Source of the DNA: Sipunculus nudus
Taxonomy: Eukaryota; Annelida; Sipuncula; Golfingiida; Sipunculidae
Assembly: GCA_026874595.1 (NCBI GenBank)
Contig: CM049308.1
Span: 48,925,327-48,989,326 of the forward strand
DNA: 64,000 bases
Direction of reading: 5' to 3'
Below, piece after piece: positions 383 through 64,000 of this stretch. Made by a program: the position numbers and the translations under genes. The notes under the pieces were generated by a model. It was not told the origin of the DNA and searched no databases. It saw nothing but the letters and a program-made list of their open reading frames with translations. The stretch's first letter is position 1, and the number at the start of each line of letters is the position of its first letter.

Positions 383-2955
383 GTATCCGCCAAAACAGAG
401 TTTTGCAGATACAATGTTTTCAGTCGGACGCCGACGCTGCCGCCATCGCTGCATAGGTATCCAGAGAACTCCTCCATAACCGCTGGGCAGAATTTTTTGA
501 AATTCGGAATTATGATCGGTCACATGTGAACTGCTGCGCCCTCATTTTTGGTTGACCTCTGACCTTTCTTCTCTGCCCAGCGTCCATTTGTGCGTCTGTT
601 TCCACACATAAACCCACATATCTCGGGAACCGTTTGACTGATAAGGCTTAAGATTTTGCACAAGTGTAGCCCTTGGAAAGCTTTATAACCTACACTAAAA
701 ATGGTGGCGCCATCTGCAACTATTTTTTGCACAGCATCCATCTGTTCATCTGTCTTGGGATAAAAACACTCATATCTGTGCATTAGTTGGACTTATCCAC
801 CTGAAATTTTGCAAGTGTATACATCCTGGGCAGCTTTCTTGATTTTATGACAGGTGGCGCAACCTACATTCACGTTTAAGCTGCAGACATCCAAGCTCAT
901 ATCTCAGGAACCATTTGATCAGATGGGCCAAAATTTTGCATTTGTATAGATCTCCCATAGCTCTTCATACGCAAAATTGGTGGTGCCACCTGCAACCATT
1001 TTTGCACATCGTCCATCTGTTCATCTGCCTCAGGATAAAATCACTCATATCTAAGCAGTGGTTTGACTTATCCACCTGATATTTTGCACGTTTATACATC
1101 CTTGACAGCTTTCTTGATTTTATGACAGGTGGTGCCACCTACATTCAAATTTACGCAGCAGACATCCAAGCTCATATCTCAGGAACCATTTGACCGATTG
1201 GGCAAAAATTTTGCATGTTGATAGATCTCACATAGCTCTTTATCATACACAAAACTGGTGGCGTCACCTGCAACCATTTTTGCACAGCGTCTGTCTGTTT
1301 GTTTGCCGTGGGATAAAATCACTCATATCTCGGCAGTGGTTTGACATATCTGCCTAAAATTTTGTATGTTTATACATCTTGGATAGCTTTCTGGATTTTG
1401 TGGCAGGTGGCGCCACCTACATTTATGTATATGCTGCAGACCTTCAGGCTTATATCTCAAGACTGGTTTGACATATCCCCCTGAAATTTTGCATTTGTAT
1501 AGATCTCACATAGCTCTTAATCACACACATAATTGGTGGCGCCACCTGCAATCATTTTTGCACAGCATCTGTCTGTTTGTTTGCCGTGGGATAAAATCAC
1601 TCATATCTCAGCAGTGGTTTGATATATCTGCCTAAAATGTTGTATGTTTATACATCATGGATACCTTTCTGGATTTTGTGGCAGGTGGCACCACCTACAT
1701 TTATGTATACGCTGCAGACATTCAGGCTTATATCTCAGGACTGGTTTGACACATCCCCCTGAAATTTTGCATGTGTATAGATCTCGCATAGCTCTTAATC
1801 ATACGCAAAATTGGTGGTGCCACCTGCCACCATTTTTGCACAGCGTCAGTCTGTTTGTCTGCCGTGGGCTAAAATCACTTATATCTCACTAGTGGTTTGA
1901 CTTATCTGCCTAAAATTTTGCATGTTTATACATCTTGGGTAGCTTTCTGGATTTTGTGGCAGGTTGCGCCACCTACATTTATGTATATGCTGCAGACCTT
2001 CAGGCTTATATCTCAGGACTGGTTTGACATATCCCCCTGAAATTTTGCATTTGTATAGATCTCACATAGCTCTTAATCACACACAAAATTGGTGGCGCCA
2101 CCTGCCACCATTTTTGCACAGCGTCCGTCTGTTCATCTGCCTCAGGATAAAAACACTCATATCTCTGCATTGGTTGGACTTATCCACCTGACATTTTGCA
2201 TGTGTATACATCATGGACTTGCTTTCTTGATTTTATGACAGGTGGCGCCACCTACATTCATGTTTAAGCTGCAGACATCCAAGCTCATATCTCATGAACC
2301 ATTTGACCGATTGGGCAAAAATTTTGCATGTTTATAGATCTCACATAGCTCTTTATCATACGCAAAACTGGTGGCATCACCTGCAATCATTTTTGCACAG
2401 CATCTGTCTGTTTGTTTGCCCTGGGATAAAGTCACTCATATCTCGGCAGTGGTTTGACCTGCCTAAAATTTTGCATGTTTATACATCATGGATAACTTTT
2501 TGGAATTTTTGGCAGGTGGCACCACCTACAATTATGTATACGCTGCAGACATTCAGGCTTATATATGAGGACTGGTTTGACATATCCCCCTGAAATTTTG
2601 TATGTATATAGATCTCACATATCTCTTAATCATACACGAAATTGGTGGCGCCACCTGCCACCATTTTTGAACAGGGTCCATCTGTTTTTTCTGCCGTGGG
2701 CTAAAATCACTCATATTCTCAGTAGTGGTTTGACTTATATGCCTAAAATTTTGCATTTTTATACATCTTGGACAACTTTCTGGATTTTGTGGTAGTTGGT
2801 GCAACCTACATACACATTTCGGCTGCAGACATCCAGGCTATTATGCAACACACCTCACTCTATTCCCCTTGCCACTCAATCCATACCTCACTTCACCTTT
2901 CCTACTCTGATTTTGGAGGATACACGTAGTCGTTTGTTGACTACCCATATTCTAG
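383..2955 (+). mobile_element. Family A DINE/Helentron-like element, long copy (A1)
   Basis: The element opens with an imperfect hairpin (GTATCCGCC ... GCAGATAC, 383-412), followed by a stretch resembling 'CTGCCCAGCGTCCATTTG'. The core consists of units of about 130-150 bases, alternately ending in 'GGTGGCGCCACCTAC' and 'GGTGGCGCCACCTGC'. Near the 3' end 'ATTTTGGAGGATAC' (about 2909-2922) is an inverted, slightly decayed copy of the 5' terminus. It is followed by the hairpin GTAGTC/GACTAC (2926-2944) and the end 'CATATTCTAG' before a T-run. It is more than twice the length of the other two A copies because the core is expanded. It sits inside family C. The Helentron-like class is inferred from structure; no Rep/helicase is encoded. 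Confidence 0.75.
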
Positions 2956-3148
2956 TTTTTGTGTTGTGTGCACCCATGCCAGTATTGCAGCAGTGATGTT
3001 TGTTTAATTGTTTCTTGTTCTAAGTGTTTAGTACTTGCATTGTTCATATACATGTTACACATGTTCTTGAAAAGTAATGGTCCAGCATTGAAGCATTATA
3101 CCTGGTGTAATCTCATTGCACAGGTTTGCATTAGGACTGTAGGCCTTG
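2956..3148 (+). mobile_element. Family C element, right part of copy 1
   Basis: Begins 'GTGTTGTGTGCACCCATGCC' after a T-run and matches 47095-47268 closely. It ends 'TAGGACTGTAGGCCTTG' before TT. The second copy has the cleaner palindrome AGGCCTATAGGCCT here, so family C also ends in a hairpin plus CTTG. Confidence 0.75.
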
Positions 3149-3171
3149 TTTAAAGTAATGTATGTTTTATC

Positions 3172-5611: not shown

Positions 5612-6705
5612 TTAGGGCCCCGCTTGACAAGCTGTGCCCTAAAGTGATCACCATGTCACTCTGTCCTTCTGTCCATCCGTTTTTCCGTCAGGGATGATTG
5701 GTACCTATGAGTGCTCCAGACCTATTGAATTACAGATCTGTCAGAATTCCAATATGGTTGCCACAGCCTGATCGCTGTTTTCCTTTCGCGTGCCATAACT
5801 CAACAACATCCTGCTGCAGCTTTCCAAAATTCACAGGAATGATTGGTACCTATGAGTGCTCCAGACCTATTGGATAACAGATCTGTTGGAATTCCAATAT
5901 GGCCTCCACAGCCTGATCGTTGATTTTCTTTCACATGCGATAACTCAACAACAACCTGCTGCAGCTTTCCCAAATTCAGAGGGATGATTGGTACCTATGA
6001 GGGCTCCAGACTTATTGAATTACAGACTTTTCTGAATTCCAGTATGGCTGCCACAGCCCGATTGTTGATTTTCTTTCTCGCGCGATAAATCAACAACAAC
6101 CTAATGCAGCTTTCCCAAATTCACAGGGATGGTTGGTACCTATGAGGGCTCCAGACTTATTGAATTACAGACCAGTCTGAATTCCAATATGGCCACCACA
6201 GCCTGATCGCTGATTTTCTTTTGCACGCAATAACTCAACATCAACCTATTGCAGCTTTCCCAAATTCACAGGGATGATTGGTACCTATGAGAGTTCAAAC
6301 CTATTGAATTACAGACCTGTCGGAATTCCAATATGGCCACCACAGCCCAAACCCTGATTTTTTTCACGCGCGATAACTCAATAACAACCTACTGCAGCTT
6401 TCCCAATTTCACAGGGTTCACTGGTGACTATGAGGGCTCCAGACCAATTGAATTACAGACTTGCTCAAAATCAAATATGGCCAGCAGACTACAATTGGTG
6501 ATTTTCTTTTGCACACATTATTTAAGACATATCTTCTTTAATATCATTTGATCCATTTGATTTTTTCCCTCATGCATATGGATAAAAACCTGTTTTTGTT
6601 TGTCATATTTTTCAAATTTAACTTAATTTTTCACCCACATGTAAATTAGTCCAGCACTATCAGAAATGCGGGGACCTCTGAGGACCATTGTCTGACCACA
6701 TCTAG
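5612..6705 (+). mobile_element. Family P DINE/Helentron-like element, copy 1
   Basis: Starts 'TTAGGGCCCCGC', can fold with 'GCCCTAA' 20 bases later, and is followed by GTCC-rich sequence. The core has about six units of almost exactly 145 bases; 'GGATGATTGGTACCTATGAG' or a close variant recurs at about 5692, 5837, 5982, 6127 and 6272. Near the end 'GCGGGGACCT' (6668-6677) is an inverted copy of the 5' 'AGGGCCCCGC'. The element closes 'CTGACCACATCTAG' before TT. There is no GGTGGCGCCACC core in this family, and the 3' hairpin is weak. Confidence 0.7.
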
Positions 6706-7585: not shown

Positions 7586-8786
7586 TTAGGGCCACACTGG
7601 AAAAGTGGTTGCCTACAGTGATCACTGTGTCAGTCCGTCCACCCGTCCTTCCATCTGTCCAGTGATGCTTTCTTTCGTTCACAATATCTTAATAGGATTA
7701 TGCTTCATCTTTCTCATACTCACAGGGTTGATTGGTACCTATGAGTACTCCATCTTCAAATTATGAAAGAACAGACATTTTGAATTTCAGTATGGCCTCC
7801 AGAGCACAATCAGTGATTTTCTTTCACGCGTGATATCTCAACAAGAACATGCTGAATCTTTCTCATATTCACAAATGATTGGTACCCATGACTGCTCCAC
7901 CAGCAAATATCAGACCTGTCAGAATTCCAATATGGCCACCAGATTGCAATCCGTGATTTTCTTTCACATATGATATCTCAACAAGAACCAGCTTGACCTT
8001 TCTCAGAATCACAGGGATCATTGATGCCTATGAGGGCTCTAGACCTGTAGAATTCCAGACCTGTCAGAATTCCAATATTGTCACCAAGGCCTGATCGGTG
8101 ATTATCTTTTGCTCAAGGTATCTCAACAAGATCATGCTTGAACCTTCTTATATTCACAGGGATGATTGGCACCTATGAGGACTCCATCTCTTTCGAATTA
8201 CAGACCTATTGGAATTTCAGTATGGCCGCCAGAGCACAGTCGGTGATTTTCTTTCATGTGTGATATCTCAACAAAAACATGCTTGATCTTTCCCAGATTC
8301 ATAGGGATGATTGGTGCCTATGAGGACCCCATCCCTATCGAATTACAGACCTGCTCAAAATCAAATATGGCCACAAGAGGCGATTGGAGATTTTCTGTCA
8401 TTAATTTTGACATAACAGACCAGAATCAGAAATTTTCTGTCGCACACATTTTCACAAACAGAATACTTTTGATCTTTGTCAGATTCACAAGAATGATTGG
8501 TGTGTATGAGGACTATTGCTGTCAAATTACAGACCCATCCAAAATCAAATATGGCAGCTAGAGTACAATGTGTGTTTTTCTCTATTGCACACATTATCTC
8601 AAACATATCCACTCTAATATGATTTGAACCAGTAGGATTTTTGTTCCCTCATGCACATTGCTAAAAACCTGTTTCTGTTTGTCATATTTTTAAACTATAA
8701 ACTTAACTTTTTTCCCATATGTAAACTAGTCCTGCACTAAAAGAAATGGGGGGGCCTTCTGAGGACCACTGTCTGACCACATCTTG
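7586..8786 (+). mobile_element. Family P DINE/Helentron-like element, copy 2
   Basis: Begins 'TTAGGGCCACACTGG', then 'GTGATCACTGTGTCAGTCCG' and a GTCC-rich stretch. About six units of ~147 bases carry 'GATTGGTACCTATGAG' and 'GAATTCCAATATGGCC'. It ends 'GGGGGGGCCTTCTGAGGACC' then 'CTGACCACATCTTG' before a T-run. Its units have diverged more than those of copy 1. Same orientation as copy 1, with 0.9 kb between them. Confidence 0.7.
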
Positions 8787-13179: not shown

Positions 13180-14355
13180 GTATCCGCCAATACGAAGTTT
13201 TGTGCATACTGTGTTTTTGACCAGGTTCTGCCGCCGCCGCCGCATTCATTTCAGGAGAAATCCTCTGAGACTACTGGACGATTTTTCTGAAACTTACACC
13301 AGTTATCGGGTCACATGTGAACTAGTGCCCAACCAATAGGCATTGACCTCTTACTTTTCCTCTCTGCCCAGCGTTCATTTGTGCGTCTGTTTCCACACAT
13401 AAACCCACATATCTCAGGAACCGTTTGACCAACCAGGAAAAAAATTTTGTACAAATGTAGCCCTTGTATAGCTCTATAACATAACAAAAAATGGTGGTGC
13501 CACCTGCAACCATGTTTGCACAGTGTCCATCTGTTTGTCTGCCTTGGGTTAAAATCATTCATATCTCTGCAGTGGTTTGACTGATTCACCTGAAATTTGG
13601 CATGCGTTTACATCCTGGATAGCTTTCTTGATTTTATGACAGGTGGCACCACCTACATTCACGTTCATGCTGCAGACATCCAAGCTCATATCTCGGGAAC
13701 CTTTTGACTGATTGGGCCAGAATTTTGCATGTGTATAGATCTCGCATAGCTCTTTATCATATGCAAAACTTGTGGTGCCACCTGCAACCATTTTTGCACA
13801 GCATTCGTCTGTTTGTCTACCGTGGGATAAAATCACACATAACTCGGCAGTGGTTTGACATATCTGCCTAAAATGTTGCAGGTTTATACATCCTGGACAG
13901 CTTTCTTAATTTTATGACAGGTGGTGCCACCTACATTCTAGTTTACGCTGCAGACATCCAAGCTCATATCTCTGGAACCTTTTGACTGATTGGGCCAAAA
14001 TTTTTCATGTGTATAGATCTCACATAGCGCTTTATCATAAACTGGAAGGGCCACCTGCATCCATTTTTGCATAGCATCCATCTGTTTGTCTGCCGTGGGC
14101 TAAAATCACATATATCTCAGTAGTGGTTTGACTTATCTGCCTAAAATGTTGCGTGTTTATACATCTTGGTTAGCTTCCTCGATTTTTTTTGGCAGGTGGA
14201 GCCACCTACATATACATTTGGGCTGCAGACATCCATGCTAATATGCAACACACCTCACTATATTTCCGCTTTCCACTCAATCCATGCCTCACTTGACCTG
14301 TTCCACTCTGATTTTGGCAGATACACGTAGTCCCTTGTCGACTACCAGATTCTAG
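13180..14355 (+). mobile_element. Family A DINE/Helentron-like element (A2)
   Basis: Inserted after 'TTTTTAATTTTT'. It begins GTATCCGCCAATAC with a partly decayed hairpin partner. The core includes GGTGGTGCCACC, GGTGGCACCACC and similar variants. Near the end are 'ATTTTGGCAGATAC' (an inverted copy of the start), the hairpin GTAGTC/GACTAC, and 'GATTCTAG' before TTTT. Length about 1,176 bases, almost equal to A3, which suggests this is the standard size. Confidence 0.75.
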
Positions 14356-14371: not shown

Positions 14372-17300
14372 AAGTATTCAACCTAATAAGCGCCCCTTCC
14401 CTAATAAGCCCCCCCCCCCCAAATAATATCCTGGGGCAATGTAATGCTTTCACTTCTCCGTGCCAAGCTTAAAAGTTACCGCCAGTTTTTATTCTATCTC
14501 CGTTAGGCTTTATCATCTAATAAAATAATAATATAAGTTTCACAGAAAAGAATCAGTGATCAAGTGTGTCATAGATTACATTGACTGACTGTCTGTGAAG
14601 GCTGACCCTGCAGGTGGCCATGCTGATCTGGTGACCTGAATTCAGGTATGTGGATGTATTATGCAATGAAATATTTATACTTATCCAATTTGCACATGTA
14701 CAGGACAATAAACTTTATCCTTAAAACTATTTGGCAAAAAAGAGGCGCCATCTTATATGGGTACAAGGTTTCAGCATCCTCAGGGCCGCCAAGGATAATT
14801 TACAGCAATCAGCATTATTACGTTGGTCAAAAAGGATGCTGTAAATATCAGTGACCATGTCCGTTTGGTTAATATATACATATAATAGAGAACATTACAA
14901 TGCTTTGTTTTTGTTTGAATTTATAGTTTTTACATCAGATGCACATAGTTAAATAATTGGTAAGAAAACTGAATCAATATATGAAAGCCCTTCTGACAGT
15001 AAAGCCAGTGATTTTCCGCGGTCGCGGACGGAATCGGAAACTGACAGACCAAAACGGAATTCCCAATCCTAAAAATATATGTTTTAATGTATTTTGTTTC
15101 TGCAAAAAATATCTTGGCAATTCACTTGAAACGTATGCAGTGATATAATTGCCGATGCCTCTGAAAGAGTGCAGGGCTTACCGATGTACTCAAGATCCCA
15201 GAGCCCTGGGTTTATTTGTGTATACAGCGCTCGTGCAAGGGATGCTGGGACTTGCCTGTTTGGCTAAATGCCATCCACTAGCACTTAATATGCATAATAA
15301 AACAAGGATGATTTTTAGCCCTCAGCCCTTAGGCTGATGGGCTATTGTCGTCACCCAAGCTTTCCGTCCATCCGTCCGGCGTCCGTTAACTTTTACCTTG
15401 TGAGCGGGATATCTTGAAAAGGATTCACCGTCAGAATTTTATTTCCTCGGTAAAGATGTATATCTAGATTATCTACAAAATCTCGGTCAAGTTCGAAGAT
15501 GGGTGACCTTGACCTATTTTTGTACATTTTAGAGCTGATTATAGAAAAACACTTAGATGCTTATTACTCAGGAACCATATGGTGGATTTTCACAAAACTC
15601 ACTATGATTATTGGGACTGATCCTCTGTACCTGCTTCACAAGTTTGGTGGCGCCACCTACAATTTCTGATTTTTAATGAATTTTTATCGGATTTTTCAAC
15701 TTTGGGCTTGTGAGCGGGATATCTCTAAAAGGATTCACCGTAGGAATTTTATTTTTTCGGTGAAGATGTATATTGACAAAATCTCGGTCAAGTTCGAAGA
15801 TGGGTGACCTTGACCTATTTTTCTACGTTTTAGAGCTGATTATAGAAAAAATATTTAGAAGCTCATTTCTTAGAAACCATTGGGTGGATTATCACAATTC
15901 TTACTATGATCATAGGGACTGATCGTCTGTAACTGCTGCACAAGTTTGGGGGTGCCACCTGCAATTTCTGATTTTTAAAGAATTTTTCTTGGATTTTTCA
16001 ACTTTGGCCTTGTGAGCGGGATATCTCTAAAAGGATTCACAAGAGGAATTTTATTTCTTTGGTGAAGACGTATATCTACGAAATCTCTGTCAAGTTCGAA
16101 TATGGGTGACCTTGACCTACTTTTCAAGGTCACAGAGCTTATAATAGAATAAAACTTAGAAGCTTATTTTTCAGGAAGCATTTGGTGGATTGTTATGAAA
16201 CATGGTACATACCTCTCCATTTTAAATTTATAACTGAGACATGTACAGATATACATCCATGTGAGAACAGATATTTAGTACTTGTAACTGTTACCACCTC
16301 TAAACACTGTTGTTTTGGCTGAGGGCTTTTGTCAGCTTCTGCTGATATTCTAGTTTCATATGGTGCCGTATTTACCGCATAAAATGTTCATGGGTCCAGT
16401 GAATGCGGACGCTGTCAGCTGGCTTGCACACGGACATACACGGAGACTTGCACATGGCACTTTGATTACAAGACAACCAGAAGCGCTTTATAATGATAAA
16501 TATGAAGCGGCCTTTCCTCAGGTGACGTGAAATTCAATGTTTGTCAAGCTTGTATTATTTTGCCTTGGTGCAAGGCTGAGAATAAGACACTGGGGGACCC
16601 GGGTCATACAAAATCTCATTTCAGTTATTAACCCATAACAAGTATAATTGGACTATGTCAAGAAATGAATGTATTATAACGGGTCAACAAAGTTCAAGGA
16701 AGGGACCCTGTTTCCGCGGGATATAAATATGACGAATTTCCTTACAATTTTTAAACATAAACCCGGATTTGGTGCGTATACGCACTGATATTAATATAAA
16801 ACTTAGGAGTCTGAGGGCCAGTATTTCAGCTTTTTTTTAACTTTTGCATGTAATATCAAGCACAATGAAGGTCAAAAAGGACAATTATTGGCGATGCCAT
16901 TCCATGTCATACATCGGCTCAGCTGTCAAAGGTATTTGCGCAAGGTGGCTGACATAATCGGGGTGCCGATGTACCTTATTATATTTTCTCATCTATCAAA
17001 TAAATACTGTTTTACCTACCTTTATATGATCATTTTATATATTTTACTACCTTATTAGGCGATGACATTTATTAAAGAGTGCATTTATTACCATCCTTAT
17101 TTTTCCTCTTCACCTGCAAAGGAAATCTCTAACTGCAGTCATTCATAAAATTCTCTCATACAACACAAAATAAAATTGTCTGCAAATTGGTATCACTTGG
17201 ATTAGTTATTATTTTTCAAAACTTCACACAATCATCGCTAAAACATTGTTGTTTTTTCTGAGTTGTCCTGAATCTGCTGTGAATTTAAGCACGTGTACAC

Positions 17301-17428: not shown

Positions 17429-17679
17429 TAATGATCTGATTGGGGTGGGCAAGTGACATTGCCATTTGCACCTAGTCACATTGCCAAGCCTTAGTGACAT
17501 CTGTTGGACATTTTAGGTACTGTAGATTTGATGCTGCACTGGAAGTTGCCCATTTGTAAGAATATGTTCATAAGTTGCATATATTTAAGAATATGTTCAT
17601 TCTCCACCTTAGCAGAGTGGTTGATATGTAGAAAAGCTCTGTCCTCCTGTCCATCGACTGTCTGTCCATAAACTGAGCA

Positions 17680-31920: not shown

Positions 31921-32262
31921 TGACTTCTACAGATTTTGTTAAATGTTGCAAAATTCACTTAATTCCATACATGTACACAGTAAAATTATTGAAGAATCTT
32001 TTTGCCAAAAATGGAAGGATATTAAAAAAATGCCCTTGAAGTGTAACAATGGGAGGTATTTGCTTAATTTCTTGGAGGAATGAGATAACATTACCCTAGT
32101 TTCATTAATGGAAATAGTTTTTGCCCTACCTGTATGCAAAATTCCAGGTCTGAAACTAGAAAAGTTTTGATTTGTGCCCTGTTAATGTATGTCTGGCCAG
32201 ACAGATGGACGATGGACAAAAGGTGATCACTATAACTCAGATGATTTTTAGGCAGTTGAGAC
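31921..32262 (-). mobile_element. Family S element fragment, reverse orientation (S8)
   Basis: Read on the minus strand from 32262: a 5' hairpin with 'ATCATCTGAGTTATAG', then GTGATCAC, 'TTTGTCCATCGTCCATCTGT' and TTAACAGGGCACAAATC, all family S landmarks. The 3' limit is unclear; the fragment runs up to the MITE. It is the only copy found pointing this way. Confidence 0.6.
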
Positions 32263-33822: not shown

Positions 33823-34059
33823 TAGCTCAGCTGACTGAAAGTCATCTGAGCTATAGCGATCACTCTTTGTCCGTCGTCCGTCTGTCCGTCTGTCCGTCTG
33901 TCCGTCTGTCCGTCCGTTAACCAGGCACAAATCGTAACCGCTGGACCTAGAACCTTGTAACTTGGGATTCTGAGAGGTCCATAAAAAATCTCCTTGGAAA
34001 CCAGAAATTAGGTCTCTGTTACCCATATCCTTCGAGCTATTGGGCCCCAAAGTACCCCC

Positions 34060-36065: not shown

Positions 36066-36902
36066 AAGTACAGCTCAGAATAATGGAAAATTTGATACAA
36101 AAGCTAAAGTATCTGAACAACTAATGCAGAGATAACCATAATTGTTTGCATGGATATTGATCATGGAGTGTTTCATAAGTTTCTGCAGACTGGTGGCACC
36201 ACCTGTATTTGTTCGGTTTTTTTTTACGAAATTTTTCTGTATTTTTGAGACCTTTAAAGATATGAACATCTGTTAACAGGGCACAAATCATAAAAACTGG
36301 ACCAAGAATCTTCATTCTTGACACACAGGGAGACCCATGAAAAGTCTCCATGGAAACTTGAAATTAGGTCTCTGTTACCCATATTCTTTAAGCTGTATGG
36401 GTCCAAAATACCCCCCCCCCCCCCATGAATAATGGAAAATTTGATACAAAAACTGCAGTATTTCAATAACTACAACACTGATGGTCATGATTTTCGGCAT
36501 ACATATTGATCATGAGCTGTTCCATCAGTTTCTGCAGACTGGGTGTGCCACCTCTATTTTTTTTTCAAATTTTTACGAATTTTTTTCTTTTTTTTGAGAC
36601 CTTTAAAGATGTGGTTATCTGTCAACAGGATACAAATCGCAACAACTGGACCTAGAATCTTCATTCTTGTCATGCAAGGAGGCCCATGAAAGGTGCCTGT
36701 GGAAACTTGAAATTAGGTCTCTGTTACCCATATCCTTCAAGCTATAGGACTCCGAAGTATCCCTCAGAATAATGGACAATTTGATACAAAAACTGAAGTA
36801 TCTGAACAACTAATGCAGAGATCACCATGATTTTTTGCATGGATATTGACCATTAAGTGTTTTTATTAGTTTCTGCAGACTGGTGGAGCCACCTGTATTT
36901 TT

Positions 36903-38073
36903 GTATCCGCCAAAACGAAGTTTTGCGGATACTATGTTTTTGACCGAGTTCCTCCGCCGTGGCGGCGTTCGTTTCCAGAGAGCTCCTCAGAGACTAATGG
37001 ACCGATTTTTCCCAAACTTACACCTATTATCGGGTCACATGTGAACTGGTGCCTAACCAATTTGCATTGACCTCTGACCTTTCCTCTCTATCCAGTGTCC
37101 ATTTGTGGGTCTGTTTCCACTCATAAACCCTCATATCTTGGGAACCGTTTGACCGATCAGGAAATAAAATTGATACAAATGTAGCCCTTGGATTGCTTTA
37201 TAACATACACAAAAAATGGTGGCGCCACCTGTAACCATGTTTGCACAGTGTCCATCTGTTCATCTGCCTTGGGTTAAAATCACTCATATCTCTGCAGTGA
37301 ATTGACTAATTCACCTGAAATTCGTCATGTGTATACATCCAAGATAGCTTTCTTGATTTTATGACAGGTGGCGCCACCTATGTTCACGTTCATGCTGATG
37401 ACATCCAAGCTTATATCTCGGGAACCGTTTGACCGATCAGGAAATAAAATTTATACAAATGTAGCCCTTTGATAGCTCTGTAACATACACAAAAAATGGT
37501 GGCGCCACCTGTAACAATGTTTGCACAGCGTCTGTCTGTTAGTCTGCCGTGGCCTAAAATTACTCATTTCTCTGTAGTGGTTCGACATAACTGCCTAAAA
37601 TTTTGCAGGTTTATACATCGTGGACAGCTTTCTTGATTTTATGACAGGTGGCGCCACCTACATTCTAGTTAACGCTGGACACATCCAACCTCATATCTCA
37701 GGAACCATTTGACCAATTGGGCCAAAATTGTGCATGTGTTTAGATCTCACATAGGTCTTTATCATACACAAAACTGGAGGGGTTACCTGCAAAGATTTTT
37801 GCACGGTGTTTGTCTGTTTGTCTGCCATGGGCAAAAATCGCTCATATACATGTAGTGGTTTGACTTTTCTGCCTAAAATTTTGCAGGTGTATACAACTTG
37901 GACAGATTTCTGGATTTGTGGTAGGTGGCACAACCTACATACACATTTAGGCTGCAGACATCCATGCTAATATGCAACATACCTCACTCTATTTCCCCTT
38001 GCCACTCAATCCATGCCTCACTATCCGATTTTGGCAGATACATGTAGTCACTTGTCGGTTACCCGTATTCTAG
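36903..38073 (+). mobile_element. Family A element (A3) nested in S2
   Basis: It begins with the cleanest 5' hairpin of the family (GTATCCGCCAAAAC / GTTTTGCGGATAC, 36903-36932). Four exact GGTGGCGCCACC cores lie at about 37219, 37366, 37498 and 37647. It ends 'ATTTTGGCAGATACATGTAG' then 'CGTATTCTAG' before TTTT. The S unit stops at 'GGTGGAGCCACCTGTATTTT' and continues after the element with 'CTCTATTTTTGAGA', so the boundaries are well supported. Confidence 0.85.
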
Positions 38074-38350
38074 TTTTAAAAGTTTACACAATTTTCTCTA
38101 TTTTTGAGATATATAAAAACAGACTAAATCTTGGCCTGTTGGTTAATCTGTTTGATGCTTCAGTTGAATGGGTATATACTACCATTCTGGTGATAAAATT
38201 TCCTTTTGTGAATCTCTTCCCAGTCAGCTGAGCGTCATGACCCATGGGTCACTTGTTGTGATTAAAAGCTCATTTCATACATTTGTGAAGATTGCATAAT
38301 TTTATATTCCAAGACCACCAGTTGATCACTGTGTGCTGGACCTTCTGGTA

Positions 38351-39368: not shown

Positions 39369-41996
39369 TAGCTCAGCTGACTATAAGTCATCTGAGCTAT
39401 AGTCGTGGTCCATTGTCCGTCGTCCGGCTGTCTGTCCGTCCGTCCGTAGATGTGGCACGTTTTGAAACCATAAGACCTAGGAACCTAAAATTTGGCATAA
39501 TGTTAGATGTCCCGAAGATCTCCTGCCAAGCCGAAAACTGGGTCTTTGCCACTTTGTTCCTTTGAGAAATTAAGGAAAAACCTCAATTTTTTATTAAAAA
39601 CCTATTTTCACACTTCAGGGCTGCCTAATATCAAAACCATTCATCTGTTGTTCCTCATATTTACCATAAATATTCCTCTATATAGTTCCTATGTACATGT
39701 CTGAAATTATGTCTGTATTATATAATTTGAGAAAGTTATGGGCCAGAACATAATGCATTTTGTAAAAAATCAGGAAAGATATTTGATCACTTAACACAAA
39801 ACTAGTTTAAGCTAAGGACTTTTTTTCAAGTAATATAACTTTAATTAATCAAAATTAAATTGTATACCCAAAATTAGATCAAAATCTTTTAAATTTTTTA
39901 AAAATATGAACAAAAATAAAAAATTGGTACCTTAAATTTTGCCTTACTTTGACCATGGCACGTTTTTTTCCTGTAAGTACTGTGGATTTAATTTATCAGC
40001 ATGTTTTTGTTAGCATTTTGTCTGTTAACAAAAATAATTTGAAACCAGTTGATCAAAAACTGTAGATTTTATTCAAGTTTTCAAGCACCATGTAACATAT
40101 TGTTTACATCAGGCTAGTGTTATGCAGTTTGCAAGAGCTCAGCTCCCCAGCTTAAGCTCTCAGTTCGTAAAATTTGGCATACAATTAGATGTCTCCAAAA
40201 TCCCCTATCATGCCAAGAATTTGGTCACTAGGACTTAATACCTTTATGATATTAATGAAAAACTTCATTTTTCAATTAAAAACCCATTGTTACACTTCAA
40301 TACTGCCTAATATCAAAACCACTGATCTGACTTTAATCATATATAATATACATGTTTTTCTATACATTCTCTGTGCACATGCCAGAAATTATGTCAGTAT
40401 TGTGTAATTGTTTTAAGTTATGGGCCCAAACATAATGCACTTTGTAAAAAAAATCAAGAAATATATTTACTCCCTTAACAAGGGGCTTGCTGAAGCTAGA
40501 GGTTTTTTGTCAGGAATGTAACATTATTTAATCAAGATTCAATTGAATACCCAAAATTAGTTCTGAATTTTTAAAATTTTATAAGTTATTAGTATAAATA
40601 TAAAATTAGTACCATAAATTTTGCCCAACTTTGACCATTTCACTTTTGTTTCATGTGAGCTCTGTTTTTATAATTTTCATATCATGCACACATAAGGATT
40701 TCAGCTTTTTAGTTTAGAAAGCTGAAAGAAATTGGCCAAAAAATGTAGCTTTTATTAATGTTTTTATGAGACCATGTCAGACCTTGGCTCTCTCCAGCCA
40801 CTCTTTAGTCACCTGTATGTTGAACTTGTTGAACTTTCAGCAAATTATGCACGCTTGAGGCGAGGCATATACCTGGGCAGCCAGGCAGCTTATGGCCAGC
40901 CACAGTTGATCCAGGTGTCCAACCCAACTCATCTAGTAGTTTTATACAACAACATAACAATAAACAATAAATTAATCAATTTTTATTGGTTTTTAATAAC
41001 AAATTAAAGAAAAATAGAAAAGGAATTTGTTAGTTTATAATAATAGGGAATTAACTTGCAGTTACTGATGATATAAGAATCTTGTATCGATGGATAGAAT
41101 TTCACATATTCCAAATAACACCATGCATTCACCTATGGCATTTTTCAGTTCAGTTTTAATAATAAAAAAGTAAATCATATTATTCATTACTAATCATAAG
41201 GGATCATATGAAGGAAATTAATGATAGACAAAGATGCAGTTGATAATATTAATCTAGATTCCTACTGTGTCTAGTGTGTACATTGATATGAAATTAGTCC
41301 AAAATGAATATATCACATTTATTTTTTTTTAATATAAATAAAAGCCATAAAACCAGGTACTTATGATCATTATTCAAATGTGTGAATTTTGTACATTCTG
41401 GATTCTCAACACCATTGTTTGGTGAAAACTGAATAAATACCAGACATGGTGGGAATACTTTGCAATTGGATTTAAATACGAATATGAATATGTACTCCAT
41501 TATAAAATTTCTTGCATAAAGAATGGGAATTCAGGTAAAAATGAAAGTATATGAATACCAGTGCAAATACTTTCCAAATGTATTCATGAATGCATTCATG
41601 AATATATTCTTTAATATTATTTTAATAATCATTTCAGTTATATTTCATTTTAAAAATCATACGATTCTCTTATTATTTTTAATAAAAATTATATCTGGGA
41701 CAATATTTGTAATTTTTTTTAATAAATAGTTAAACTCTTATATTATATGTTCTGCTTATAAGTTATATGGCCAAGTCAAAATCTGTGTGACAATAGCACT
41801 CCATTTGTTAATAAAATAAATGAAATCAATTCTCTTCTCTGTCTCCAAAGGTACTATCAAAATCATACATAAGCTAAACAACAACTCATAATACAGCTTA
41901 TACTTATTACCACACAAAACCAGCATGTGCCTCATTTCTAAATCATATTTTTTTATCATATATAACAGCTGAGCGCTGTGACCCATAGGTCCCTTG
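39369..41996 (+). mobile_element. Family S-ended element with a distinct body (S5), 2.63 kb
   Basis: Family S ends: TAGCTCAGCTGAC / GTCATCTGAGCTATAG at the 5' end with GTCCGTCGTCC following, and CAGCTGAGCGCTGTGACCC, GGTCC and CTTG at the 3' end. The body is unlike S2: two related units of about 680 bases ('AAATTTGGCATA' at 39487 and 40170), then about 1.2 kb of AT-rich DNA. It lacks GGTGGCGCCACC. A close paralogue lies at 59880-63979. Both carry the same small frames (for example 41756-41986, minus), explained by overall identity. Confidence 0.8.
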
Positions 41997-42871: not shown

Positions 42872-44990
42872 TAGCGAACCTGTGAGCTTATGCGATGGTG
42901 TGGTGTCTTCTGTCGTCTGTACGTTAACCCATACTATCTTGAAAACGGGAAGAGTTTGCATCACAAAATTTTATGCAAAAAATTAATCATCTGAAAAACT
43001 CAGATGAAAAACTTATTTTTTGGCTAACTGCATTTTCTTAGATTTTATAGGGAAAAAGCTAAAAAAGCTTTAAAAATCTTCTTCTCCGAAACTGTTCAGC
43101 CAAATTGTTTAATGTTGCACAGAAATGATCCTAGGGTAGTGCTTTCTGAAATTTGTTCAAATGGTCTCAGTTCAGTGACTTTTGGCTGAGTTACGGGAAG
43201 CTGAATTTAGTCATATGCCATAACAGCCCATTTTAGCTCAGTGGCTACAAAGATCTTCTCAAAAACCACTGGGCCAAATTCTTAAATCTCACACATTAAT
43301 TATCCTTAGATGTTGATAATTCAGGTTTGTTCAAATGATTTTGGTTCAGTGATTTTTGGCTGAGTTATGGGAAGCTTAAGCCATTTCGCTTTATTTTCCC
43401 ATATGAGATATAAACCTGCAAAACGTTTTTTGACTGACGCCACTGAGGCCAATTTGTTTAATATTTTACAAAAATAATCCCCTAAATAATTCTTACAATA
43501 ATTGTCTTTTATGGTTCCAAAGAATGAATTTTGGCTGAATAATAAAGATTGAATTGAGTCATTTTACCATATATGTTAGCTGTGTGAAGCAGATACATTT
43601 AGCCTGGAACCAGTTTATCAGCATCCGTATCATCATGCCTCCAGACATTTAGATTTCAGGTTATCTATGGTTAATATTGACAAGAATGTTTTTTAAAAAC
43701 TTTTAAAAAATGTAGATTTATGATTTTAGATATTCCTCATGCCAGGCAATGTTTACAATCACAGGTATACATTAACCCATACTATTTTGAAAGCGACTGG
43801 AGCTAGCATCATGAAATTTAATGCAAAAAATTAGCCATCTGAAAAAATCTGCATTTTCTCATATTTTATAGAGAAAAAGCTAAAAAAAACTTTAAAAATC
43901 TTCTCCTCCGAAACGGTCAAGCCAATTTGTTCAATATTTCACAGAAATAATCTTTTATACCATCTCTCTCAAGATTGTTCAAATGGTTAAAGTTCGGTAA
44001 ATTTTGGCCAAATTACATGAATATGAACTTAGTCATCTGTCCAAAAAAGCATACTAAAATGACAATCTCAGAAACGGCCAGAGCTATCCTCACCAAATTT
44101 TATGCCAGTGTTGGTCACATGAGTCATATATGAAATTTTGGTGGCGCCACCTGCATTGACCTTTTTTTTGTACGGGGGTCATTGGTCATCTGTATATCAA
44201 CCTATAATTTCTCAGGAATAGCAGGAGCTACCATCCCGAGATTTGATCTGTCACATATCAAATGTTGTGGGATTCAGCTTATTTTTTGCTATCTGCTTTT
44301 ACTTAGAATTTATAGGGGAAAAGCTGAAAAATCTTTAAAAGTCTTCTTGTAAACGGTCCAGCCAAATTGTTCAATATTTTACAGAAATGATCCCAGAGGC
44401 TATGGTTTGCATTTGATGAATTTTAGTGGAGTTAAACAAATTTGAATAGTCATTTGGCCAAGTAAGCATACTGACATAGTTATCTCAGAAATGACAGAAG
44501 CTAGCATTACCAAGTATTGTGCAAATGTTGGTCACATGAATCATATTTGAAGTTGCAGATTTTGTGGTGCCACCTACATTGACCTATGGGCAAAAACCTC
44601 ATAATTTTAGCCTCTTTCAGCTTAAAATGTTTATGATGAAACTGTCAAGTTGAATCGTTCAATTTTTCATAAGAATTATCCTAGGACATGGTTCTTTCAA
44701 TCATATCAGAAAAGCTTAAGTTGGTCTTATGGCCATTATTATGTCTAACTCAAACTGAGGACTGCAAAACTGTTCTTCTACAAAATTATTGTTTCAATTA
44801 TAACTTCTGTAACATGGCACAAAAATTATTATTAGGTGGCCTTTTTTCAAGTTTACTTGAATGATTTTTGGCAGAATTGTTGGACCTTTAACAATGAAAG
44901 AACTGCATCTTTTATTATTCTAGATATTTTGATAAAAAGTTTATGAATATTTCAGCTTGAAAAAAAGCATTTTAGCCAAAGTCTTTCAGT
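42872..44990 (+). mobile_element. Family F repeat element, 3' end not defined
   Basis: Starts TAGCGAACCTGTGAGC after TTTT, followed by 'GTCTTCTGTCGTCTGTACGT' and TAACCC, resembling the S and E leaders. The core has units with 'TTCAGCCAAATTGTTTAAT' or variants (about 43090, 43265, 43440, 43910, 44350 and 44650) and 'TTTTGGCTGAGTTA'. GGTGGCGCCACC occurs at 44141 and GTGGTGCCACC at about 44563. No inverted copy of the start was found, so the right limit is a guess. Confidence 0.55.
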
Positions 44991-45804: not shown

Positions 45805-47094
45805 TAGCTCAGCTGACTGTAAGTGAACTGAGGTATAGGAATGGCACTTTGTCCGTCGTCCGTCGGGACGTCTGGGCGTCCGGCTGTCCATTAGCAGAGC
45901 ACAAATCATAACGGCTGGTCCTAGAAACTTCTAAGTTAACATCCAGGGAGGTCAATAAAAAAATCTCCTTGGAAACCTGAAATTAGGTCACTGTGAACTA
46001 TATCCTTCGAGCTATGGGGCTTGAAAGTACCCCCCAGAATAGTAAAAAATTTGATACAAAACCTCCAATATCTTGATAATTAATGCCTGGTTTGTCATGA
46101 ATCTTGCCTTGAATATTGACCATGACTAGTTTTGTCAGTTCCTGAAACGTGGTGGTGCCATCTATATTTTTTCCTATTTTAACGAAAATTTTTCTATTTA
46201 TTTACTATAAAATGACAACAATCATGTCAGTTTCTCAGCTGTGATTACATCTTGTGTCCCCAAACCTGATGTGTTTATTGATCACAAGTGGATGCCCTAT
46301 ACTAATCACCCTGTCTGTCTGTCTGTTTGTATGTCTGTCTATCTGTCAATCCGCACAAATTTGTTTCCAGACGATAACTCCAGGTTGGATTAGCACATGG
46401 ATTTCAAACTTGACTTACACATGGCCCACCACTAAAGCAAGAACCTATATGATTTTGGGGTCATGAGGTCAATGGTCAAGGTCACAGGACCCATTTCTTT
46501 AAAAGGAATGTGTATGCATTTGATGCCAAACTTTTCATTGCAAACCTTCCATCTTCAAGAGATTGCTTACCTGCCACTAGTGGAAGATTCTGTTTGATTT
46601 TTGGGTCATAGGTCAAAGGTCAAGGTCACAGGGCCCATCCATTCACAAATTAGTTTATGGATGATAATTCTGCTTTGGATAGACAGACTGGCTTCAAACT
46701 TGATTTAATAATGACCAACCACATAAATAAGTTCATTTTGATTTTCAGGGTCCAGCGATCTAAGTTGAAGGTCACAGAAGCCACATCTTTAAAAAGATTG
46801 TGGATGCACTGTAAATCAAACTTTTCATCCTGAACTTTCCAACATTCACACATGGCTTACTTGCCCAAAGTGAGGAAACCTGTAGAATTTTAGGTTATCT
46901 GGTCAGTGGTCAAGGTCAACTTTTAAAAGATTGTTACAATAATCCTAATGCTGCAAGTTCAAGGATATTAAGTTCTAAGATTTTTTGGTCACAAGGTCAT
47001 TTGTTAAGGTCACAGGACTGTCATTCTGAAAAATTTCTTTAAAAAATATCCTTATAGACAAATTCAGCTGAGCTTCGAGACCCATGGTCCCTAG
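45805..47094 (+). mobile_element. Family S-ended element nested in family C (S3), chimeric body
   Basis: The 5' half is family S (TAGCTCAGCTGACTG, GTCCGTCGTCCGTC, 'AAATTAGGTCACTGTGAACT', a decayed GGTGGTGCCATC). From about 46200 the body switches to another repeat, with (GTCT)n and units like 'GGTCAAAGGTCAAGGTCACA' (family D). The 3' end returns to family S: 'TTCAGCTGAGCTTCGAGACC', CATGG and CTAG before TT. The ends are therefore shared while the cores are interchangeable. Confidence 0.75.
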
Positions 47095-49695: not shown

Positions 49696-49699
49696 TAGT

Positions 49700-52290: not shown

Positions 52291-55253
52291 TAGCTCAGCT
52301 GACAAAAAGACATCTGAGCCATTGGATCACTCTTTGTCCGTTAGCTGTTAACAGGGCACAAATCTCTATTTTTGAGACCTTCAGATTAAGCTGTCATCAG
52401 TTAACAGGGCACAAAACATATCCATTGGACCTAAAGGTCAAGCAAACATATTCCAAATCTCATTATAGTATCATATAACATAATTGCCTATGAAAAAAAT
52501 ATTAATATAGATTTTACATAAAATAAGCCCAATTCCTGGAGCAAAAACATTTTTTCTTTCTATTTTTTCCACTAAAAACATGAGGTTGTGTGATTTGTTC
52601 AAAAACTATTGGCACATCTATGAGCACTGTCAACTCGGCAGTGATGTCACACACTGGGAAATCCCCTGTGACTAAAAATTCTAGATCTCAGTAAAAGCAC
52701 AGTATTTCTGCCTCTGTCAGTCCCAAATTTTCAGCAGAGAATAAAAACAACATGCATTACTAGATCTGAGTTGTTGATAAAATTCAGTCCATGATGTCAC
52801 ATATGTACCAGCCAATCAAATCTGGACAAAGTCTGGGATCTGGATGAAATCCTCTCATCACACAACAAATGCACATGGAATAGGTTTACTTAACCTAAAG
52901 TCGTCTTACTTGACATCCAGGGAGGTTCATGATAAACTTTGAAACCTGAAATTAGGTCATGGTGACCTATAATTTGTGAACTTCATGCTGAAAACATGAT
53001 TTTTAGCACCCTGTCAGTCAGACCAGGCACAAATTGTATCAGCTAAGCCCAGAATCTTCTCACGTTACACCTATGGAGGTCCATACAAAAACTCTTTCCA
53101 AACCTGAAATTAGGTCACTGTGACGTATATACTGCGAGCTATGGGGCTTTAAAATAACACCTCCCCTCCCCCCCCCCCCCCCGGAATAATTAAAAATTGA
53201 TACAAAAGCTCTTATATCTGAACAACTAATGCATTGATTGCCAGGATTTTTTCTGTGCAAGTTGATCATGGAGTGATCCATCATTTCTGAAGACTGGTGG
53301 CACCACCTGTATTATTTCTAATTTTAAGTGTTTCTTTTTTTTTTTTTAGACCTTTAGATGAAGCAGTCCATCCATTAACATGGCACAAATTGTAATTTTT
53401 AGCTCAGCTGACTGTAAGTCGTCTGAGCTATAGCGGTCACTCTTTGTCCATCGTCTGGCCGGCTGTCTGTCTGTTAACAGATCATAAATAGTTACCACTG
53501 GACCTGGAATCTTCTAACTTTACATCCAGAGAGGTTCATGAAAAAACTCCTTGGAAACCTGGAATTAGGTCTCTGTTACTCATATTCTTCAAGCTAAGGG
53601 GCTCTGAAGTACCCCCAGTATAATGAAAAATTTGGTGCAAGTATCTGAACAACTAATGCATTGATCACCATGATTCTTTGCATGGGTATTGATCATGGAG
53701 TGTTTCATCAGTTTCTTTAGACTGGTGGCGCCACCTGTATTTTTTCGATTTTTTTTTTAACCATTTTTTCTCTCTATTTTTGAGACCTCAAAAGATGCCG
53801 TCATCTGTTAACAGGGCACAAATTGTAATCGCTGGACCTGGAATCTTCTCACTTTACATCCAGAGAGATCCATGAAAAGTCTTCTTGCAAACCTGGAATT
53901 AGGTCTCTGTTACCCATATTCTTCCAGCTATTGGGCTCCGAAGTACCCCCCCCCCCCCCCAAAAAAAAAACTATATTGAAAAATTTGATACAAAAGCTCA
54001 AATATCTGAACAACTAATGCATTGATGGCCATGAATCTTTGCATGGATATTGATCATGCAGTGTTTCATCAGTTTTTGCAGACTGGTGGCAAACTGTATT
54101 TTTTCAATTTTTTATGATTTTTTTCCCTCTATTTTTGAGACCTCAAAAGATGCCGTCATATTTTAACACGTCATCTTCAAAACCAGAAAGTAGGTCTCTG
54201 TTACCTATATTCTTCCAGCTATGGGGCTCCGAAATACCCCCAGAATAATGAAAAATTTGATACAAAAGCTCAAGTATATGAACAACTAATGCATTGATCA
54301 CCATGATTCTTTGCATGGATATTGATCATGGGGTGTTACATCAGTTTTTGCAGACTGGTGGCACCACCTGTATTTTACAATTTTTTTATCTTTATTTTTG
54401 AGACCTTAAAAGATGCCAATCTGTTAACAGGGCACAAATCTTAATGACTGGACTTAAAAGTGACCTTGGAAACCTGGAATTATGTCTCTGTTACCCAAAA
54501 CCTGTGAGCTATAGGGCTTCCAAGTACCCCCCCCCCCCCAAGAATAATAGAAAATTTTATACAAAAGCTCAAGTATCTGAACAACTAATGTATTGATCAC
54601 CATGATTCTTTGCATGGGTATTGATCAAAGAGTGTTCCATCAGTTTCTGCAGACTGGTGGCACCTCCTGTATTTTTTTTTATTTTTACTATTTTTTTCTC
54701 AATTTTTGAGACCTTAAAAGATGAGGTCATATATTAATAGGGCACAAATCGTCACGGCTAGACCTAGAATCTTCGTTCTTGACATGCTGGGAGGCCCATG
54801 AAAAGGCTCCTTGGAAACCTGAAATTAGGTCCCTGTCACCCATATTGTCTGAACTATGGGGCTTAGAAGTACCCCCCCCCCCCAGAATAATTGAAAATTT
54901 GATACCAAAGTAGGGCACAAATCATAACCATGGGGCCCAGAATCTTCTAAATTGACATTCTGAGAGTTCCTCAAAATTTCTCCCCAGAAACCTGAAATTG
55001 GGTCACAGTGACGTATATTCATAGAGTTTTGGGGAAAGTTTGAGCACCCCAGAAATAATGCAAAATACAAACAAAATTGCCAGATTCCTAATGAAAGGCT
55101 GGTTTGATTGTCATCAAATTTGTTGTGCTTATGGGTCTTGATCAACTTAAGCTAATATGCATGAACGATGCCACCCATCTTAATTAGTTGTCTGTGCAAG
55201 GACATATTATCATGATGTCAGTCGGCTGACCATCATTACCCATGGGTCACTTG
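52291..55253 (+). mobile_element. Family S element (S4) with a second S start inside
   Basis: Starts TAGCTCAGCTGACAAAAAG and runs through decayed units with TTAACAGGGCACAAA. At 53400 another full S start appears, and one 3' end closes both: 'GTCGGCTGACCATCATTACC', CATGGGTCAC and TTG before TT (55253). Cores include GGTGGCGCCACC at about 53725 and GGTGGCACCACC variants. C runs after AGTA expand to 9-14 bases in several units. Confidence 0.7.
53400..55253 (+). mobile_element. Family S element nested within S4 (S4b)
   Basis: A complete leader (TAGCTCAGCTGACTG / GTCGTCTGAGCTATAG, then TTTGTCCATCGTC and GTTAACAG) directly follows 'GGCACAAATTGTAATTTT' of the outer element. About five units of ~325 bases follow. 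It is unclear whether the 3' end belongs to this or the outer copy. Confidence 0.65.
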
Positions 55254-56802: not shown

Positions 56803-56805
<3 letters not shown>

Positions 56806-59585: not shown

Positions 59586-59867
59586 AAAGTGAAATAAAGG
59601 TATTAGTCCATTCTGTCCACTGGCCTGTCCATCTGTAAATTTTTCATATACATCACAGTATCTCAAAACTTTTACTGTTTTTCTTCATGACTGTCTTGTC
59701 AGAGTATTAGTTTGCATATATTTAGAACTTTACTATAACCAAGTAGGAGGGCCTCTTTCCTCTTAGCTTCTCATATGCTTATATAAATGAAAAACATTAA
59801 AATAGAATATTTTGCATTTGCAAAAATTTCAAACTTAAGCTGAGCGCCGTGACCCATGGGTCCCTTG
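59586..59867 (+). mobile_element. Family S element, 3' fragment (S7)
   Basis: Ends with the intact family 3' terminus AAGCTGAGCGCCGTGACCC, ATGGGTCC and CTTG before TTTT. Upstream are 'CTGTCCACTGGCCTGTCCAT' and decayed body, so the left boundary is approximate. Only 12 bases separate it from the next S element. Confidence 0.6.
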
Positions 59868-61539: not shown

Positions 61540-63087
61540 CCGTAGATCCGTGTTTTGCCGCCGCACTTCGTCTAATGGCCTCACCCCATGTTCGTAAAAT
61601 ACCAGGAAGGCTCCTTCACTGGAGTTAAAAATACCCAAAACCTTACTTAATGGCCACACCACATTCTCACCACGTTCCATTGCTGGGTGGTGTATGGAAA
61701 CATAACGTAAAAAGGTTTCCCTCAAAAGCTAGACTGCAGCTTGGAAGGCTGTGGTATGCTGATATGCGATCAGGCATAACAGTTTTGGGAAACTGAGCAA
61801 GTTGCAACTGTGTATGTTACTTGGCTTTGTTAATTAAACAGCCTGATCTACCCAGTTAGAATAGATGACAATTTGTTCGATTTATGACAACTCATCCAAG
61901 ACGAATCCTAGTAGGGCCGCGAAATTAATTTGACACATCACTGCATGCTGGAGAATCTTGCGCCTTTAACTTTGTTAATTAAACTTCAATGGGACATCAA
62001 CAGATCAAAGCATTGTATAGGATGACGGTACTTGTATTTAGACTTTATACATCATCGGTCATTTAACAACAAAATCTCTAAATAAACAACACCCGCGTCG
62101 GTGATCATACCACTTGAACCCCCGGGTCCTGCTGTTCATAATATATGCAAAATGGTGTCTGCACGGTCTACCGGCAAAACATGCCATATAAAATGATTAC
62201 GAAACAAGCGTGCCTTGAGATACCTTGTGCCATTACACTGACAAATTAAACTTCAGTGGTACATCAAAGCATTATATAAGCCAACGGTACTCTTTGTGAT
62301 GACAAACTTTAATTTGGACTCTATATAACGCCGGTCAGTTAACAACCTTGACAAAACCTTTGAATAAACGAATCCCGCGTCGATATTCAAACACAGCCTG
62401 TACGCGTACTCCCAGGGTCCTGCTGATCATAATGTATGCACACTGGTGCCCGAACCGTCTGCTGGCAAAACGTGCTATATTGAATGATCATGGAACTAGC
62501 TGGTGAGGTAATGACCTTTGAGCGCCATCTATTAACAATGTGATGAACGAAGAAGTAGCTGAACGTGAACGCAGGTTTAATTGCCGAAGACCGTATGGTC
62601 TTTGGCTATCTTTTGTTTTACAGTTTATTTTAAAAGAAAGGATATGTTCCAGAAATATCTTTAAAAAATGTTTTACCGGTATTGCAGCCATGCTCAAAAT
62701 TAGGTACAACCGTTAGAGTGCATAATTTGGTGAGTGAATATCGATCATTTATCAGTCATGGCTTGAAAATGGCTGTGGTTTATGACTGACTCAAAGAAGT
62801 TTGTTAATACATATAAGCCTGTTTAAAATATAACTTTACATTTTATGAAATTAACAATGAATAAAATTAATACACAAATATGCAGTATCATTAAATATAG
62901 GTTCTTAGTATTCACTTCAACCTTCCTCTGCCAAATATCTCCCCTTGCGCGTCGTCGAGTCTCTTGCACATGTTTGGTTTTAGCCTAACCTGCCTTTTAT
63001 AGCCCATCCCTTGTCGAGTAAAATTAGACAGGATTTTCGGTTCTAAGTCTCATTTTATGGCCGCGGCGGCAAAACGCGGATCTACGG
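61540..63087. mobile_element. Inverted-repeat DNA transposon, 1,548 bp, TA duplication (TIR family 1)
   Basis: The left end CCGTAGATCCGTGTTTTGCC and the right end (inverted) CCGTAGATCCGCGTTTTGCC both continue GCCGC, one mismatch in 25. TA flanks it at 61538-61539 and 63088-63089. S5 shows the matching empty site with a single TA ('TTTCACATATTCCAAATAAC'). The interior is GC-richer, contains two copies of a ~270-base unit, and has no recognised transposase (small frames at 61486-61725 and 62488-62709, minus). Probably non-autonomous and Tc1/mariner-like by its TA target; superfamily unproven. Confidence 0.9.
61930..62500 (+). repeat. Internal two-copy repeat of the 1.55 kb transposon, ~267-290 bp unit
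   Basis: 'ATTAAACTTCAATGGGACAT' at 61978 matches 'ATTAAACTTCAGTGGTACAT' at 62245. Both copies continue through GGTCCTGCTG, CATAATRTATGCA and GGCAAAACRTGC. Similarity is clear but far from perfect, so the duplication is older than the insertion. Confidence 0.75.
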
Positions 63088-64000
63088 TATTCCAAATAAC
63101 ACCATGCACTCACCCATGGTATTTTTCAGTTCAGTTTAAATGATAAAAAAATAAATCATATTATTCATTACTAATCATTAGGGATCATATGAAGGAAATT
63201 AATGATAGACAAAGATGCAGTTGATAATATTAATCTAGATTCCTGCTGTGTCTAGTGTGTACATTGATGTGAAATTAGTCCAAAATGAATATATTACATT
63301 TATTTTTTTTTAAATATAAATAAAAGCCATAAAACCAGGTACTTATGATCATTATTTAAATGTCTGAATTTTGTATATTCTTGATTCTCAACATCATTGT
63401 TTGGTGAAAACTGAATAAATACCAGACTTGGTGCGAATACTTTGCAAATGTATTTGAATACGAATATGAACATATACTCTATTATAAAATTTCTTGCATA
63501 AAAATGGGAATTCAGGTAAAAATGAAAGTATATGAATACCAGTGCAAATACTTTCCAAATGTATTCATGAATGCATTCATGAATATATTCTTTGATATTA
63601 TTATAATAATCATTTCAGTTGTATTTTATTTTAAAAAATCATATGATTCTCTTATTATTATTAATAAAAATTATATTTGGGACAATTTGTAATTATTTTT
63701 AATAAATAGTTAAACTCTTATATTATATGTTCTGCTTATAAGTTATATGGCCAAGTCAAAATCTGTGTGACAAAAGCACTCCATTTGTTAATAAAATAAA
63801 TGAAATCAATCCTCTTCCCTGTCTCCAAAGATACTATCAAAATCAAACATAAGCTAAACACCCACAACTCATAATACAGCTTATATTTATTTCCACACAA
63901 AACAAGCATGTGCCTCATTTCTAAATCATATTTTTTTATCATATATAACAGCTGAGCGCCGTGACCCATGGGTCCCTTGTTTCTCTTATGAGACCTCCAA

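Follow-up and report, generated by a model that had tools for sequence, protein, structure and literature searches.

Probable HINE-type elements of four families in a 64-kb stretch of the Sipunculus nudus genome, with a candidate gene-carrying partner for one family

A 64,000-nucleotide stretch of Sipunculus nudus DNA (C3:48925327-48989326, hereafter the window; C-numbers denote contigs, of which the 1.43-Gb genome has 153) holds four families of dispersed elements, A, S, E and P, that are built on one plan. Each consists of a T-run, a foldable 5′ end, a tandem core, an inverted copy of the 5′ end and a terminal CTAG or CTTG before a T. We consider it about 90% probable that these are HINE-type elements, that is, non-autonomous Helentrons carrying short satellite-like arrays. 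This class is supported by the architecture, by T-run targets without detectable duplication and by a Helentron-type element sharing both S ends; an earlier note on the window had proposed the same class, and these three lines bear it out. In kind the four families are ordinary HINEs; what is new is the S partner, a palindrome shared between families and a pattern of orientation.

Family A (tandem unit approximately 278 bp) has three plus-strand copies in the window, A1 (383..2955), A2 (13180..14355) and A3 (36903..38073). The sequence upstream of A is common to all eight fetched A loci, the window's included, because the lineage is embedded in a longer A-like repeat, which here includes positions 1-382 and holds the A copy at 383. 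Family E (302 bp) is present at 15317..16353 and family P (145 bp) at 5614..6705 and, with a CTTG end, at 7588..8786, all on the plus strand. The S element at 33824..38255 (plus; unit 336 bp) is split by A3, and its first 482 bp are 99-100% identical to the best other copies. A3 lies within the T-run of one of the S tandem units; joined directly, its two flanks restore an S unit, with no visible duplication beyond Ts. Other plus-strand S copies lie at 53401..55253 and, with a diverged 3′ end, at 30446..31278, and S 5′ ends at 39370..39429, 45806..45864 and 52292..52341 (plus) and at 32203..32260 (minus), the last being the sole minus-strand element among those counted. Two plus-strand 3′ ends at 59836..59867 and 63949..63979, which we take to be the separate family C of the earlier note, prove to be S-type.

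All eight end sequences quoted in that note are present in the window, and its central observation, a foldable 5′ end repeated in inverted form before the 3′ end, stands up against shuffled sequence. The 3′ copy matches the reverse complement of the 5′ end at 11/11 positions in E, 12/13 in S, A3 and A1, 11/13 in A2 and 9/10 in P. Shuffled tails reached these matches in 0 of 5000 cases for E, S, A3 and A1, in 1 for A2 and in 3 for P. The subterminal inverted repeats of 11-15 bp that characterize HINEs are thus seen in six copies of the four families, in P over 10 bp only. Among the other P copies with both ends visible (6/7 fetched), the inverted match, counted by eye, is 10/10 in one, 9/10 in three and 8/10 in two. 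Folding of the 5′ ends is more stable than in shuffles, with z scores of -4.6 (E), -3.9 (S), -6.9 (A3), -5.3 (A1) and -2.1 (P; A2 was left out), and in copies of S, E and P the 5′ repeat is followed by a GTCC-like microsatellite. In 3 of 11 S-type 3′ ends, one stem pair switches from A-T to G-C on both sides. Of five measures of this stem, two were rarely matched by shuffles (covariation score, reached by 11 of 500, and cells paired, by 17) and two were matched by most (both-side-changed pairs, 451; pair types, 450).

Copies elsewhere in the genome begin and end where the window copies do. We scored the best 40 of 3576 candidate places for E, of 3417 for P and of 1658 for S, self excluded; the E and P queries extend past both ends and the S query past the 5′ side only. 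E copies start at query positions 12-16 in 38/39 places (one at 45) and end at 1058-1068 in 39/39. The 5′ end is covered by 27 P pieces, all of them starting at 15-18, and 39/39 best P places end at 1113-1123, whereas S copies start inside the T-run, at 4-10, in 38/39 places and at 1 in the other. The conserved termini that the earlier note asked to see genome-wide, namely the E and P starts and ends and the S starts, thus fall at the proposed points. The TT targets it predicted are likewise found: TT flanks E on both sides in 8/8 loci, window copy included, and P on the 3′ side in 7/8, and the S 5′ flank is a T-run in 6/6. Exact ends number 35,384 (S 16-mer), 8,214 (A 16-mer) and 1,272 (E 32-mer) genome-wide, with 0, 1 and 0 matches for the respective reversed-pattern controls. 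Identity among the best places is 93-96% for E, 83-88% for P and 92-100% for S, which suggests that S probably moved more recently than E and P.

A Helitron_like_N profile search of the genome gave at least 143 matches (best 150 of 195 candidates), and comparison of 50 Rep pieces (30 and 20) distinguished at least six lineages, R1 and R3 being the largest among these. The R3 lineage includes, on the minus strand of C17, a candidate gene-carrying partner for S with the same two ends and an S-type core, which is new here. This putative element spans 14.2 kb, with its 5′ end at C17:35639637 and its 3′ end near C17:35625478, and has a 2342-amino acid open frame that by arithmetic ends ~1 kb before the S 3′ end. 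The Rep and PIF1 profile matches report the same frame length and both lie inside the frame, and the Rep piece was confirmed by direct scan. The 3′ end matches that of the window in 34/35 bases; upstream lie an inserted A element, then the S-type tandem core and then the S 5′ end AGCTCAGCTGACTGTAAGTCATCTGAGCTATAG. Similarity to the S core is 71-85% over stretches of at least 240 bp in the first 640 bases and lower beyond. The N-terminal part of the frame (L090:2-928, minus) matches Herpes_teg_N, where R1 has OTU.

The 924-bp 3′ region of this element recurs at ≥98% in six places, C17 included, among the best 40 of 1415 candidates; a PIF1 match lies upstream on the same strand in 6/6 and a Rep match in 5/6. 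In fifteen further places of the same set the match begins only at query position 770, and in 14 it runs to 920-924, where the query itself ends at the terminus. This pattern is consistent with what non-autonomous copies would give, the boundary itself lying outside the query. Five more places, at 69-74% similarity, stop near query position 597 and all carry an S-type 3′ end, after which 10/10 pairs of them diverge within a few bases. As the tandem core sits on the gene-carrying S partner itself, a satellite of this kind may move together with its own machinery, and capture by a deletion derivative need not be invoked; we met no case of a satellite core riding on a gene-carrying element in the portions of PMC7492417 and PMC4067079 that we consulted.

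The other large lineage was considered as a partner and rejected. R1 has a single 2235-amino acid frame whose first part holds OTU and whose second holds Rep, PIF1 and Exo_endo_phos. Its one located end, found by the breakpoint between the C7 and C5 copies, resembles a HINE 5′ end that lies on the other strand from the gene, and stands beside an array with a period of ~148 bp; it has no match among A, S, E and P. At one R1 locus (L040, minus), STPR-repeat matches occur in an upstream frame (2317-3072) and also where the main frame (1-2313) begins. Within ~1.5 kb of 30 fetched Rep loci (L009-L038), no family ends were detected at the E-values used.

The Rep motif reads GSPH in R1, R2, R3 and R5 pieces, GWPH in L035 and GSTH in L083; L009 and L010, in which it does not appear, are Rep-like loci with internal stops, strongly diverged from the Helentron groups. 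The Helentron-type state of Rep motif 2 described in PMC4067079, a serine flanked by G and P, is shared by R1, R2, R3 and R5. Canonical Helitrons insert between A and T and have leucine in this motif; here E is flanked by TT and the motif reads GSPH. Miniature inverted-repeat transposable elements or another cut-and-paste class would also have short inverted repeats near both ends, but the repeats here are subterminal on the 3′ side, there is no target duplication beyond Ts, the end is CTAG or CTTG, and Rep and PIF1 matches are found in the element that bears S ends; we regard such a class as highly improbable.

Several observations weigh against the HINE assignment or its extension to all four families. 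The earlier note had described a clear 3′ hairpin in A, E and S and a weak one in P. E alone folds clearly better than shuffles at this end (z -2.2) and P is indeed weak (+0.9), but S (-0.1) and A (-0.9 and -0.6) are no better folded than shuffles either. One P 3′ flank of eight has a single T. The A query carried no flank, and the fetched A copies all belong to one composite lineage. The AP endonuclease domain has so far been seen in R1 only, the C17 scans having covered the Rep piece and the N-terminal part. Of the five places at 69-74% similarity, L093 alone has a listed Rep match nearby, and the exact CTTG is present in 3/5 only. The autonomous Rep/helicase element with the same ends that the note had called for has a candidate for S, on C17; for A, E and P no Rep-bearing element with their ends was found, few loci having been read far enough.

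Eleven HINE families are known in the oyster Crassostrea gigas (Cg_HINE, PMC7492417), and, as here, several families with different cores occupy one genome. Like the window families, they have a 5′ subterminal inverted repeat, a complementary inverted repeat, a tandem core, a 3′ subterminal inverted repeat and T-rich targets; they also have a GTCC-type microsatellite, as do S, E and P copies, and a palindrome, which by folding is clear here in E. The authors could not relate an autonomous Helentron to them, whereas S has a candidate partner that bears the tandem core; the likeness is drawn by description. DINE-1/HINE elements and Helentrons of mite, Culex and Drosophila (PMC4067079) share the subterminal inverted repeats, TT targets and Rep/helicase partner and, with E most clearly, the 3′ palindrome, and one gene reported there is reversed, as in R1. 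The mite HINEs are described there as deletion derivatives with 84-99.9% identity. The present case differs in the Herpes_teg_N match of the S partner and in the recurrence of one core box in more than one family. The bivalve elements pearl (CvA), DTC84 and MgE (PMC7492417, PMC5139131), also compared by description, are modular with short central repeat arrays, as in the window, and a conserved palindrome near the repeat junctions is reported for DTC84.

A Helentron Rep/helicase made elsewhere would nick the 5′ end of such an element; the strand would be peeled off and then cut at the 3′ end after CTAG or CTTG, and the copy would enter a T-run without target duplication. In this scheme, whose strand mechanism we infer, the C17 element would move S, and other Helentron lineages would serve A, E and P.

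That a single Helentron enzyme moves all four families, the mobilization group of the earlier note, seems to us unlikely, even though all four share the architecture, their local orientation is similar and a box (GGTGGCGCCACC) recurs in the A, S and E cores. The further hint of a common recognizer, for S, P and E, is a motif inside the 5′ inverted repeat of chosen copies, which agrees at 10/11 positions between S and P (reached by 8 of 200000 letter shuffles), at 7/11 between S and E (1352) and at 8/11 between P and E (272). For this comparison single strings were hand-picked, one from an S copy, one P-like and one E-like, a choice that favours a match and makes the figures a rough yardstick; several of the five window S copies depart from the motif, and A is without it. 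The terminal repeats themselves differ in sequence between the four families, there are at least six Rep lineages, and 3′ ends of the R3 type, where seen, are S-type. The R1 end is unlike those of all four families, so a single enzyme for all is unsupported; the group as the note drew it is not shown.

The palindromic box GGTGGCGCCACC is common to the A, S and E units. Allowing one mismatch, the window has 37 occurrences where 0.01 would be expected, although most of these are units of the same arrays, so the independent families are only about four. Examples, unstranded, lie in an S unit (34176..34187), an A unit (1406..1417), an E unit (15646..15657; two mismatches in the following E unit) and an unclassified stretch (44140..44151). 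The bodies of the families do differ, as the earlier note said, but with this box in three cores 'unrelated' was too strong a word. The box was looked for and not found in a 26.2-kb R1 stretch, and in the literature searched its string turned up in one unrelated paper.

With the box masked, A is clearly similar to the A-like outer repeat. Similarity between the family cores is weak: units scoring above the best of 2380 simulated sequences numbered 15/79 for A and 0/19 for S under the E model, 6/19 for S and 0/14 for E under the A model, and 4/79 for A and 0/14 for E under the S model. These counts hint at, but do not establish, a distant kinship of the A, S and E cores outside the box. P scored 0.2 bits, and the R1 core gave nothing. 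Four cases (A1, A3, S at 45806 and the C17 Helentron) give the impression of an insertion hot spot right behind the box. Two similar A-like outer repeats, at 1-382 and 45600-45805, hold A1 and the S end at 45806, respectively; the insertion point is the same in the two and follows a degenerate box.

Neighbouring elements, even of different families, also tend to share an orientation. Within the window, 14/15 counted elements are on the plus strand (two-sided p 0.001), nested copies among them not being fully independent. For the genome, strands were taken among the first 100 matches listed in each pattern search, all on C1, and the tests were made after the fact, the pattern having first struck the eye. 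S 16-mer ends are on the minus strand in 77/78 cases between 96 kb and 1.10 Mb and on the plus strand in 22/22 between 1.23 and 2.23 Mb. Up to 1.08 Mb, A ends (16/16) and E (1/1) are also minus; thinned to 5 kb, the first 1.1 Mb gives 58/58 minus, the lone plus S being among those thinned out. The 78 S ends in the 1 Mb of C1:96436-1098879 amount by arithmetic to roughly three times the genome mean.

Such alignment could arise if Helentron strand insertion takes its polarity from the direction of host replication, which would explain why unrelated HINE families agree in direction over stretches the size of a replicon and, at one contig end, over 1.1 Mb. We put this forward tentatively and rate it as rather doubtful. 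Nested or composite insertion, block duplication, local T-richness or selection could also produce one-directional stretches, and together we judge these likelier than replication, at somewhat less than even odds. S and A pairs closer than 5 kb are on the same strand in 10/10 cases and look composite, and T-runs outnumber A-runs in the window (403 versus 340), but the T-run numbers predict 54% plus against the 14/15 seen. Once pairs closer than 5 kb and the initial 1.4 Mb are set aside, 18/21 cross-family pairs at 5-30 kb are on the same strand (A-S 12/14, A-E 6/7; A-A 14/18), the pairs not being independent. Coherence along this part of C1 is short-range, the counts at 30-100 kb being 29/57 (A-A), 24/40 (A-S) and 11/17 (A-E). 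Nor does the 1.1-Mb stretch have an excess of equal spacings (231 seen versus a jittered mean of 274.4). Between 1.23 and 2.23 Mb the families disagree: against an all-plus S, A has 4 plus and 5 minus ends, and the E end at 1.77 Mb lies on the minus strand. This disagreement favours the explanations other than replication.

Longer-range tests on C1 were uneven. Same-strand E-S pairs within 1 Mb number 157/262 (rotation mean 130.7, reached by 1/99 rotations), and the excess within 200, 300 and 500 kb is reached by 4, 2 and 6 of 99 rotations. E forms 38 runs versus 49.0 (273 of 20000); thinned to 100 kb, the figure of 36 versus 42.5 (1851 of 20000) is not significant. A forms 41 versus 50.5 (692 of 20000), with no significant deficit beyond 1.4 Mb (39 versus 41.4; 6701 of 20000), and S 55-mer runs are not significant either (42 versus 45.3; 5196 of 20000, thinned 9391 of 20000).

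A replication-set polarity has a bacterial parallel in IS200/IS605, which insert as a single strand with an orientation that follows replication (PMC5371812); the two would work alike if the orientation signal has a replication cause, although the enzyme is a different one. Helitron models place a replication fork at the donor (PMC5876387), and among the titles and abstract openings listed in a literature search none reported such an orientation pattern for Helitrons or Helentrons. If the replication link were true, tens of thousands of insertions would preserve the direction in which forks travel in the germ line, and these transposons would be a fossil map of it in a eukaryotic genome, as IS200/IS605 are in bacteria (PMC5371812).

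Same-strand pairs of S followed by A, 1.4-2.4 kb apart, recur on C1 (for example, 6548786/6551160, 9458353/9460080 and 11570266/11572319), which suggests that a composite, an S element bearing an inserted A, is spreading as one piece. The window also contains further tandem arrays, at 58014-59122 (45-bp unit), 17678-17936 and 19397-19958 (both 33 bp), 38352-38748 (39 bp) and 49696-50559 (78 bp).

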